From the NCBI RefSeq assembly GCF_010672525.1, contig NZ_JAAHGH010000078.1:1-36977 (forward strand): a stretch of 36,977 nucleotides of DNA, read 5' to 3'. Below the pieces are notes generated by a model. The model was not told where the DNA came from, searched no databases, and worked only from the letters and a program-made list of their open reading frames with translations. This DNA is from Okeania sp. SIO2B3 (lineage in GTDB: Bacteria; Cyanobacteriota; Cyanobacteriia; Cyanobacteriales; Microcoleaceae). A program made the translations under genes and the position numbers. Of this stretch, positions 6,593 through 9,270 are shown one piece after another; positions within the stretch are counted from its first letter, which is position 1; the number at the start of each line of letters is the position of its first letter.

Positions 6593-6618
6593 GTAAGCAT
6601 TTCTTGCGGAATGCTTAC
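6593..6618. repeat. 26-bp hairpin, possible relic of GTAAGCATT element
   Basis: GTAAGCATT and AATGCTTAC flank a short loop. These are the same ends as the element family at 17181, 30626 and 31102. The flanking octamers CTTCTGAT and ATTCTTAT agree at 6 of 8 positions, so this may be an internally deleted copy with its target duplication. Confidence 0.4.
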
Positions 6619-6660
6619 ATTCTTATTTCAAAATTATTTTCTAGTATCGAACTTTGAAAT

Positions 6661-6682
6661 AGCTCTGCTCTGAAGCAGAGCT
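6661..6682. terminator. Hairpin downstream of the DUF2811 gene
   Basis: AGCTCTGCT-CTGA-AGCAGAGCT is a perfect 9-bp stem with a 4-nt loop. It lies about 90 bp past the stop codon of the minus-strand DUF2811 gene. No strong T-run follows, so termination is possible but not certain. Confidence 0.4.
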
Positions 6683-6770
6683 TAATCCATACATATAAAA
6701 ATTTAGTAATTTAGAATACATTAGTATGAGCAGCAAAGATAGGTTCAATATCTGTACCACCAAATGCTGC

Positions 6771-6995
6771 TTATACATGATGTTGGAAAAGAGTTTCTAG
6801 GTAAACTCTAGCAGCTTGCCGATAACAAAGAGATGTTTCTGGTGTACTGCTATCTCCATTCTGTAACAAGAATAGTGACAAAGCTGCTGAAAATACACGG
6901 TCTTGATCCCAGTCAGGGTGGGTTTCTAAGTAGGTTTTAAGAGATTCATGGAGTGCTTCAGGAATTTCGGCCAGAATACTAACGCTTAGGTTCAT
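6771..6995 (-). CDS. DUF2811 family small protein
   Basis: A 74-residue protein beginning MNLSVSILAEIPEALHESL and continuing LKTYLETHPDWDQDRVFSAA. I recognise it as the cyanobacterial DUF2811 family, whose function is unknown. The N-terminal two thirds look like a small strand plus helices (a ribbon-helix-helix-like size), and the C-terminus is RQAARVYLETLF. I chose the ATG at 6995 because the conserved family sequence starts there. The frame is open upstream to a GTG at 7052 (19 more residues, MAITRDYEEEKIY...), which is less likely. The gene lies next to the DnaA-box-like array at 7292-7365, with its 5' end facing it. Confidence 0.75.
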   Translation of the reverse strand: MNLSVSILAEIPEALHESLKTYLETHPDWDQDRVFSAALSLFLLQNGDSSTPETSLCYRQAARVYLETLFQHHV

Positions 6996-7129
6996 GTTTA
7001 AGTAAGATTCTCTGTATATTTTTTCTTCTTCATAGTCCCTAGTTATGGCCACAAGCCACTGACTTTGAACTACTAATGTCGCACTATTGTGTACTAAGGA
7101 GGGGTATGGTTGTCAATGTAGAGAAATGT

Positions 7130-7230
7130 TACAGCAGACTTTCAACAAATAAAAGATTTACGAAATAATCAGTATTTAGGGTCACTTTTTGTTATAAAAC
7201 TTTATAAAAATCGACTAATATGAAGCTGTT
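7130..7230. other. AT-rich stretch beside the DnaA-box-like array
   Basis: About 100 bp rich in A and T (for example TTTTTGTTATAAAACTTTAT near 7183-7202), directly left of five DnaA-box-like motifs. If the array is an origin, this is the natural candidate for the unwinding element. Confidence 0.3.
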
Positions 7231-7291
7231 TACTCCCCACTGAACAAAATCCCCAATTCAGTTGCAAGAGTATGATGATGTCGTTGAGGCC

Positions 7292-7365
7292 TGTGGAAAA
7301 CCCTGTTTAATCTGTGGAAAACATTAAACTTGCTTGTGGAAATGCTGTGGAATCTATGTGGAAAA
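7292..7365 (+). promoter_or_regulatory. Phased array of five DnaA-box-like motifs
   Basis: TGTGGAAAA or close variants begin at 7292, 7313, 7335 (TGTGGAAAT), 7346 (TGTGGAATC) and 7357. All point the same way, with start-to-start distances of 21, 22, 11 and 11 bp, i.e. whole turns of the helix. The complement TTTTCCACA is the DnaA-box form reported for cyanobacteria. AT-rich DNA lies on the left. This is a candidate replication origin or another DnaA-regulated site. No dnaA or dnaN gene is in the window. The short open frame across the array is not considered coding. Confidence 0.55.
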
Positions 7366-7437
7366 TTATGGCAAAAAATAAGAATTCTGAACTCTTTGCT
7401 AAAGTCAAATTTTAAAAGTCAAAAGTCATATATAGCA

Positions 7438-7458
7438 GGGAACAGGGAACAGGGAACA
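7438..7458. repeat. Heptanucleotide STRR, unit GGGAACA
   Basis: Three tandem copies of GGGAACA. The same unit occurs at 14243-14262 (altered) and 20348-20366. Confidence 0.8.
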
Positions 7459-7640
7459 TTGGCAAAAGCTTATCCCTGTATCAGGTTCATCATCAATATA
7501 AGTCCTAACCAACTCGTTCCTTGCTATAGAAAGCTTTTATCAAAATAATTGGGTCGCGCAACCCCACCTTTTAAAGCGAAATATTTTTGGAGAGTTGCTC
7601 AAATCTCCGTTACAAAAATAACTTCTGACTGAAATGAAGT

Positions 7641-7690
7641 GTGTCTTACATTCTGAGGGGACCTCAGAATTACACACTCGCTTCTGACTT
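7641..7690. repeat. Inverted copy of the palindromic repeat at 902-966
   Basis: The perfect palindrome ATTCTGAGG-GGA-CCTCAGAAT lies at 7650-7670 with shared flanks GTGTCTTAC and TACACACTCGCTT. It lies just downstream of the minus-strand photolyase gene and could form a hairpin in its transcript. Confidence 0.6.
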
Positions 7691-7707
7691 GGGGACTTCT
7701 GACTTCG

Positions 7708-9270
7708 TTATTCCCTATTCCCTATTCCCTGACTTCTGCAAGAAGTCTTTTGAGAATGCCATTTTTCTGCTTTGAGATGAATGTTTTCTAATTCTTCAGA
7801 ATCCATTTTATCTAAGTTAGCTAACACAAAGTTCATACGACCCTGGGATTTAAGTTTATCCCGATGTCTGGCCAGAAAATCCCAATAGAAATAATTAAAT
7901 GGACAAGCTGGTGAATTATTACCCTTGTGTTGAGGTGGTGTAACTCGAAGTTTCCAGTTGTAAACACAGTCTTTACAATAATCGCTCATTTTGTTGATGT
8001 AATTTGCAGAAGCAGCATAAGGTTTTGATGCCAGGATACCTCCATCAGCAAATAATCCCATTCCCAGGACATTAGTTTGCATAACCCAATCATAAGCATC
8101 AATAAATGCAGCATGAAACCAATTTTCTACCTCTTGAGGAGAAATACCAGAAATTAAAGCAAAATTACTCAATACCATTAAACGCTGAATATGATGAGCA
8201 TAACCTGTATTTTGTACTTGAATTAGAACTTGATGTAAACAATTCATATCTGTTTTATTAGCATCCCAGAAAAACTCTGGAAGTGGTTGATTATGGTTAA
8301 ACCAATTAGACTGAGAATATTCATCATCCATGAGCAAATAAACACCTCGCATATATTCTCGCCAACCTAAAATTTGCCGAATAAAACCTTCTACACTATT
8401 TAGTTTTAATTGTTGATTTTGATAAGCTGACTCTACTTTTTTAATTACTTCTAAAGGATGTAACAAACCAAGATTAATATAGGGAGAAAGCAGAGAATGC
8501 CATAAGGTTTCTTCTCCTGTTACCATAGCATCTTGATAATCACCAAAATTAGGCAAACTATTTTGAATAAAATTGTCTAGTACTTGCAGTGCTTGTTGAC
8601 GAGTTACCGCCCAACGAAAAGACTCTATTTCTCCATATTTAGTAAAATTCAAATTTTTAACTTTATTAATAACTTCTCTAGTAATTTCATCTGGTTTAAA
8701 CCATAAATTTTTTGGTGTATTTAATTTGCCTTTGGGGTATTTACGGTTTTCTTTGTCAAAATTCCATTTTTCTCCTACAGGTTTATTTTGATTCATTAAA
8801 ATTTTCAAACGTTTACGTCCTTCTCGATAAAAATCTTCCATTAATAAGCGTTTTCTATTTCTAGCCCATGCTTGAAATTCTGTTTCATGCCAAATAAACA
8901 AATTATTAGGAATTATTTTAATATCGCAGGGAATTTGGAGATTTTTAATGACTTCAATAAAAGGTTTATCATTGGGTTTAATTACCCGTAATTCAGTAAT
9001 TTGATTAGTTTCTATCCAGTGTTTAAGTGGTGTTTCAAAATCTGTGGATTTTGTGTGTGTAACTTGCCAACCTGCTTGAAGCAACTCAACAGCAAAATGA
9101 CGCATGGCTGACCAAATTAATACCAATTTTTGCTGATGATATGGTCTAACTTGGATATATTCTAAGGATTCAATAATAATCACAAAAATGTTATCTTTTT
9201 CAGTACAACTTTGAAGAGCTGCTTGATTAATATTGATTTGGTCTCCTAAGACCCAGATTCCTATATTCAT
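7708..9270 (-). CDS. Iron-sulfur bacterial cryptochrome/photolyase (FeS-BCP, PhrB-like)
   Basis: A 520-residue flavoprotein of the FeS-BCP branch, which includes Agrobacterium PhrB, a (6-4) photolyase, and Rhodobacter CryB. These proteins use light, FAD and usually a lumazine antenna to repair UV lesions or to sense blue light. The N-terminal alpha/beta domain starts MNIGIWVLGDQ. The helical FAD domain carries GFIRQILGWREYMRG, then QRLMVLSNFALISGISP and DWVMQTNVLGMG. Four cysteines fit the [4Fe-4S] site: C344, C432, C435 and C456. In PhrB the last one follows the CxxC pair more closely, so there is a small insertion here. The last dozen residues (SCRSQGIGNRE) are encoded by the 7-bp tandem repeat at 7709-7731, so the natural C-terminus has been replaced or extended. 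ATG at 9270 fits the family start. It stands alone. Confidence 0.9.
   Translation of the reverse strand: MNIGIWVLGDQININQAALQSCTEKDNIFVIIIESLEYIQVRPYHQQKLVLIWSAMRHFAVELLQAGWQVTHTKSTDFETPLKHWIETNQITELRVIKPNDKPFIEVIKNLQIPCDIKIIPNNLFIWHETEFQAWARNRKRLLMEDFYREGRKRLKILMNQNKPVGEKWNFDKENRKYPKGKLNTPKNLWFKPDEITREVINKVKNLNFTKYGEIESFRWAVTRQQALQVLDNFIQNSLPNFGDYQDAMVTGEETLWHSLLSPYINLGLLHPLEVIKKVESAYQNQQLKLNSVEGFIRQILGWREYMRGVYLLMDDEYSQSNWFNHNQPLPEFFWDANKTDMNCLHQVLIQVQNTGYAHHIQRLMVLSNFALISGISPQEVENWFHAAFIDAYDWVMQTNVLGMGLFADGGILASKPYAASANYINKMSDYCKDCVYNWKLRVTPPQHKGNNSPACPFNYFYWDFLARHRDKLKSQGRMNFVLANLDKMDSEELENIHLKAEKWHSQKTSCRSQGIGNRE
7709..7731. repeat. Heptanucleotide STRR, unit TTCCCTA, inside gene end
   Basis: Three tandem TTCCCTA units. 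They are translated as the last residues of the photolyase gene, which ends within the repeat. Confidence 0.75.

Follow-up and report, generated by a model that had tools for sequence, protein, structure and literature searches.

A helically phased array of DnaA-type boxes upstream of the cyanobacterial DUF2811 gene, probably an element through which DnaA controls that gene

The window, that is, the whole 36,977-nucleotide stretch of DNA analyzed here, is the entire contig C226 of Okeania sp. SIO2B3 (assembly of 10.0 Mb in 249 contigs). A DUF2811 gene of 93 codons lies on its minus strand at 6771–7052 (PF10929, E = 1.9e-29); the encoded protein is 99% identical to its counterpart in Okeania sp. 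SIO1I7. An internal ATG at 6995 is the start that agrees with most relatives, and the 19-residue N-terminal extension (6996–7052) of the reading frame is found in Okeania and some relatives. Upstream of the gene, on the same strand, TTGACA at 7111–7116 probably serves as the −35 element of its promoter. It is followed after a 19-bp spacer by CACAAT (7086–7091), the likely −10 element, in which ACAAT was invariant in an alignment of eight sequences.

Farther upstream, motif search and alignment in relatives identified an array of five DnaA-type boxes on the minus strand at 7292–7365. Read toward the gene, the boxes are TTTTCCACA (7357–7365), GATTCCACA (7346–7354), ATTTCCACA (7335–7343) and two further copies of TTTTCCACA (7313–7321 and 7292–7300), the last of which is 184 bp from TTGACA. 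The initial annotation had reported these boxes as same-strand TGTGGAA motifs starting at 7292, 7313, 7335, 7346 and 7357, with exact TGTGGAAAA in three of them (7292, 7313 and 7357) and spacings of 21, 22, 11 and 11 bp, and all of this agrees with the sequence. The array is also free of genes as claimed, no listed open reading frame of at least 80 codons extending over 7292–7365. The AT-rich left flank (7130–7230) was borne out in part: it is 74% AT compared with 64% for the window, but it is only mildly unusual because 7.4% of 101-bp windows match or exceed its AT content.

To judge the array against chance, we simulated 20 Mb of sequence with a first-order Markov model made from the window. 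No 74-bp stretch contained more than two TGTGGAA. Single sites resembling TTTTCCACA with at most one mismatch were not enriched in the window (20 observed versus 17.0 expected), and it is therefore the clustering that is significant. Judged by its letters and spacing, the array is a helically phased cluster of the cyanobacterial DnaA-box type and not a product of chance. The identification of TTTTCCACA as the cyanobacterial form of the box is in accord with a published study in which the DNA-binding domain of DnaA was assayed on origins with such boxes (PMC4674748). In ChIP-qPCR experiments, the oriC boxes of Synechococcus elongatus were bound by DnaA proteins from three species (PMC7198777). 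A short tandem repeat of GGGAACA adjoins the array at 7438–7459. An RNA element at the array was considered and rejected: an Rfam search of 6600–7710 returned a single chance match to a microRNA model (E = 0.24), well under the cut-off and located off the array.

A genome-wide count of TTTTCCACA, proposed as a check when the array was first noticed, gave 288 copies versus 116 for the reversed control. Three consecutive same-strand TTCCACA were found in eight rows at five places of the Okeania genome, whereas the reversed pattern gave none. The five places are C12 (dnaN/dnaA), C32 (guaA), C46, C213 and the DUF2811 array; by eye, the rows on C46 and C213 resemble short tandem repeats. The C32 place consists of three same-strand TTTTCCACA at C32:5839–5880 (L121) beside guaA and is conserved. 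An array at guaA and/or a gene for CDF zinc efflux was present in nine of the genomes inspected (G000, G330, G197, G008, G056, G033, G042, G011 and G027), and in G000, G033, G042 and G056 it lies between the convergent guaA and CDF genes. A further three-box array (L243, G280:2444045–2444097) lies away from guaA, between a convergent RlpA-like gene and ndhB (both named by eye). The guaA-side array may be a second DnaA-handling site.

We then turned to relatives, using the loci named in a search with DUF2811 (the best 80 of 315). When a box was allowed to be TTCC[AC]CA or one of two rare variants, three or more clustered boxes lay upstream of DUF2811 in 76 of these 80 loci; the stricter count, with TTCC[AC]CA alone, gave 75. 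The four exceptions were L092; L110, whose three boxes are spaced too widely to count; and L057 and L098, in which 276 and 11 bases separate DUF2811 from the locus end. The initial annotation had asked whether the motif spacing is conserved in relatives. In the 75 loci (from the best 80 of 315), all 265 steps between boxes were 10–12 or 21–23 bp (110 of 11 bp, 88 of 21, 54 of 22, 11 of 12, one of 10 and one of 23), and helical phasing is thus kept in relatives. The commonest pattern was 11/11/22/21 (29 of the 75), followed by 11/22/21 (18 of the 75). The gene beyond the far side of the array differs among loci, and a protoporphyrinogen-oxidase-like gene lies downstream in 32 of the best 80.

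The interval between array and promoter is conserved as well. For these measurements L057 and L098 were excluded, with DUF2811 at the locus end, leaving 78 loci, of which 75 had the array and 73 had, in addition, TTGACA between the array and the start codon (all from the best 80 of 315). TTGACA lay within 320 bp of the start codon in 68 of the 78. From the last box to the gene-nearest TTGACA the distance was 181–186 bp in 63 of the 73 loci, whereas that from TTGACA to the start codon ranged from 67 to 445 bp across the same 73. DnaA-type boxes thus occupy a set position upstream of the DUF2811 promoter, as in a DnaA-controlled promoter region. Alignment of eight sequences showed that about 270 bp are conserved from the array to the TTGACA...ACAAT promoter, including, between the two, TTGGGGATTT and elements resembling TGTAACAAAAA and TTTCGTAAA. 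In the window, this interval contains an AT-rich element of TAAAnTTnTGTAACAAAAA type (7185–7205) and a CTGATTnTTTCGTAAA element (7157–7172), both on the minus strand and both defined by the same alignment. On the same strand, a conserved AATTCTTAT motif marks the outer end of the array (7378–7386); in 62 of 75 loci (from the best 80 of 315) it lay no more than 60 bp from the first box. Conserved ATTGGGGATTT (7247–7257, minus strand) lies 43–45 bp beyond the last box and is possibly a DnaA box in inverted orientation, though a weak one. Of 75 loci (from the best 80 of 315), 51 had one of its forms, TTGGGGAT, TGGGGAAA or TGTGGAAA, within 75 bp beyond the last box, in 47 cases at 43–45 bp, and an ACG beyond the last box is also kept in the aligned element.

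To extend the survey, we used 30 rows to build R1, a model of the array based on sequence alone. Of 386 genomes sampled from the phylum, R1 matched 142 (E ≤ 0.001), some of which are possibly sources of the model; PF10929 (DUF2811) matched 177 and PF08299 (DnaA) 363 of the 386. Taking the best places of both among the matches listed, the array was upstream of DUF2811 on the same strand in 83 of 86 genomes, with 218–592 bp (median 361, among the matches listed) between it and the DUF2811 domain. The three exceptions were G164, G171 and G326. The best R1 match of G164 adjoins dnaA, so not every R1 match is a DUF2811 array, and R1 is able to match oriC boxes too; in G171 a second R1 match does sit upstream of DUF2811. 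Outside the window's class, R1 gave 13 matches, weak and mostly in genomes without DUF2811.

Within the window's class, the distribution of DUF2811 follows that of dnaA. Of the 189 genomes sampled in the class, 170 carry dnaA and 19 do not. All 170 genomes with dnaA had DUF2811, compared with 6 of the 19 that lack dnaA (Fisher p = 6.6e-16, phylogeny ignored); every genome of the class without a match to DUF2811 or to DnaA is covered by these counts. Outside the class, dnaA was present in 193 of 197 genomes but a DUF2811 match, below the cut-off, in only one, a point against the reading favored below. The 13 dnaA-less genomes of the class without DUF2811 fall into five groups by their labels (f1/g4, f6/g13, f6/g14, f8 and f14). 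The f1/g4 congener G151 and the other members of f6/g13 retain dnaA, DUF2811 and the array; all six sampled genomes of f8 are among the 13. By family and genus labels, uncorrected for relatedness, we count some four or five separate occasions on which dnaA and DUF2811 were lost together. General gene loss was rejected as the cause of the pattern: DUF2949, a family of similar size and the sole control, was kept in 19 of 19 dnaA-less and 19 of 19 chosen dnaA-bearing genomes (38 of 38).

Among the six dnaA-less genomes with a DUF2811 match, two have internal stop codons in the gene (L190 in G300 and L191 in G141). DUF2811 is intact in the other four, all of which retain TTGACA. Upstream of DUF2811 we counted no forward boxes in G048 and G368 and one each in G177 and G262, compared with four in G115, a dnaA-bearing congener of G048, and four in G137, a dnaA-bearing congener of G177 and G262. 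Decay of the array in G177 is incomplete, as R1 still matches (4.6e-12). Across the class, R1 matched 111 of 111 dnaA-bearing genomes outside family f25 and 5 of the 19 dnaA-less genomes. In f25, by size and copy number probably the Cyanobiaceae, all 59 genomes have dnaA and DUF2811, and R1 matched weakly in just 13 of the 59. DUF2811 is often multicopy in this family (two to five copies), and boxes were few or degenerate upstream of the two copies examined, L178 and L182. The array thus depends on dnaA across genomes, being gone or decayed in four of four genomes with intact DUF2811 and no dnaA, but f25, with dnaA throughout and few matches to R1, speaks against the link.

The initial annotation had read the array as a candidate origin of replication. 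Some observations favor this. DnaA-type boxes are clustered as they are in oriC, the conserved DNA spans about 270 bp, and the array is lost together with dnaA. In all 75 loci (from the best 80 of 315), the DNA 60–180 bp beyond the last box had a higher AT content than the locus mean, as is usual for intergenic DNA. The array also shares its box sequence and the 11-bp spacing between some boxes with the cyanobacterial oriC beside dnaN (Synechococcus elongatus, Anabaena 7120 and Cyanothece 51142). However, oriC has two opposed box sets at dnaN and/or dnaA, whereas the array has one orientation and lies elsewhere, at DUF2811. A better box cluster near dnaN or dnaA had been named as a refutation of the origin reading, and the Okeania genome has one: seven exact TTTTCCACA in two opposed sets occupy the interval between dnaN (TIGR00663) and dnaA (TIGR00362) at C12:6021–6571 (L120), which is likely the oriC of this genome. 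Opposed box sets adjoin dnaN and/or dnaA in several other genomes too.

In relatives, the array is remote from such sites. In S. elongatus PCC 11801 (G036, identified by 100% identity over 4,000 plasmid bases), dnaN and six exact boxes are located at 1.816 Mb, 0.90 Mb from the array at 0.914 Mb, which in this genome consists of three boxes spaced more loosely. In Picosynechococcus PCC 7117 (G052, identified by an identical (100%) plasmid of 4,675 bases), the 3.088-Mb chromosome begins at dnaA and the array is at 2.347 Mb, 0.74 Mb apart; for its sister strain PCC 7002, which we assumed to be collinear, a published study places the peak of sequencing depth around dnaA (PMC7198777). G093, from the window's family, carries the array at 1.295 Mb, and its dnaN and dnaA are at 5.50 Mb. 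A GC-skew minimum at the array had been proposed as a sign of an origin. In the relative G083, sampled in 40 stretches of 20 kb, the skew formed a weak V whose minimum, at about 2.19 Mb, is away from the array at 0.371 Mb; seven boxes lie within 300 bp near 2.339 Mb in this genome and dnaN at 2.448 Mb. The skew was noisy in G171, G280 and G241 (20 stretches each). In G280, the running sum was lowest at the stretch with dnaN and not at the array, and the end was almost as low. A near-constant distance to a promoter is unexpected for an origin as well. We consider it very unlikely that the array is a chromosomal replication origin, either main or second.

The datA, DARS1 and DARS2 sites of Escherichia coli are non-coding regions that alter the nucleotide state of DnaA. 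Like the array, they are DnaA-box clusters of conserved position outside oriC (abstract of PMC4585315); unlike them, the array is tied to a promoter. A site that titrates, inactivates or reactivates DnaA, with control of DUF2811 being secondary, would account for dense same-orientation boxes outside oriC and for the absence of the array where dnaA is absent. It would also suit the other conserved array beside guaA, at which the genes converge and no promoter is expected. A free-standing site explains neither the near-constant distance to the DUF2811 promoter nor the loss of the DUF2811 gene in 13 of the 19 dnaA-less genomes, and this reading appears rather unlikely. The strict link between array and DUF2811 could instead reflect binding of another protein, for example autoregulation by DUF2811, and the drift of box letters to TTTTCCCCA in some lineages is in line with this. 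In four genomes, TTTTCCCCA predominates among the array boxes but TTTTCCACA among those linked to dnaN, so that the box letters of array and oriC do not co-vary in the genomes compared. The array sites may be weaker than the dnaN-linked boxes or have a different ligand. Nevertheless, DnaA is a better candidate ligand than DUF2811: in genomes that keep DUF2811 and TTGACA but have no dnaA, the array has decayed or disappeared. Nor was a DNA-binding fold found for DUF2811, for which the AlphaFold model is poor (mean pLDDT 59.9, pTM 0.39). Foldseek with this model returned zero matches in the PDB at E ≤ 0.001, sequence searches of the PDB gave no credible match (best E 0.014 and 0.66), and comparison with other Pfam families gave none below E 0.005; by eye, a ribbon-helix-helix fold would be a guess. 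Binding by a protein other than DnaA is, in our estimate, highly improbable.

We therefore favor the reading that the array is a DnaA-bound regulatory element of DUF2811 and that DUF2811 works in the DnaA pathway, which the comparative sequence data make likely. The array would then probably let DnaA control DUF2811 and not start replication there, and DUF2811 itself probably acts in the DnaA pathway. Cooperative assembly of DnaA along boxes phased at 11 and 22 bp would align the protein on a single face of the helix. About 17 helical turns would separate this assembly from the −35 element of DUF2811 downstream, and contact with the promoter would probably be made by looping. Expression of DUF2811 would in this way reflect how much DnaA is present or what its nucleotide state is. 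DUF2811 would in turn act where DnaA acts, thereby closing a feedback loop, and would be useful only in cells that have DnaA. Activation by DnaA is slightly favored over repression, since the DUF2811 gene decays after loss of DnaA. Intergenic clusters outside oriC through which DnaA regulates genes in Bacillus subtilis, as cited in PMC7198777, likewise have several boxes upstream of a gene. Unlike those clusters, the array is a very regular row of five boxes, is class-wide and lies at a near-fixed distance from one promoter, and its target gene, DUF2811, is lost together with dnaA. The name DUF2811 was absent from the open-access papers searched (subscription papers were outside the scope), and no title or abstract among the open-access matches listed for cyanobacterial DnaA boxes, DnaA ChIP-seq or datA/DARS describes the array.

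Finally, these results bear on the role of DnaA in cyanobacteria. PCC 7002, Synechocystis and Nostoc show no growth effect under optimal conditions when dnaA is deleted (PMC7198777), so a DnaA–DUF2811 circuit would not be essential in these organisms. The array offers one conserved, testable target, and DUF2811 is singled out as an uncharacterized family that is lost with dnaA. Control of DUF2811 is perhaps a job that DnaA has retained in cyanobacteria replicating without it. We tentatively raise the possibility of a class-specific feedback circuit in which DnaA would read itself on the array and switch DUF2811, which would restrain or support DnaA. If this were true, the circuit would be what keeps dnaA in genomes that do not need DnaA for replication, and the published question about the role of DnaA in such species would be answered.
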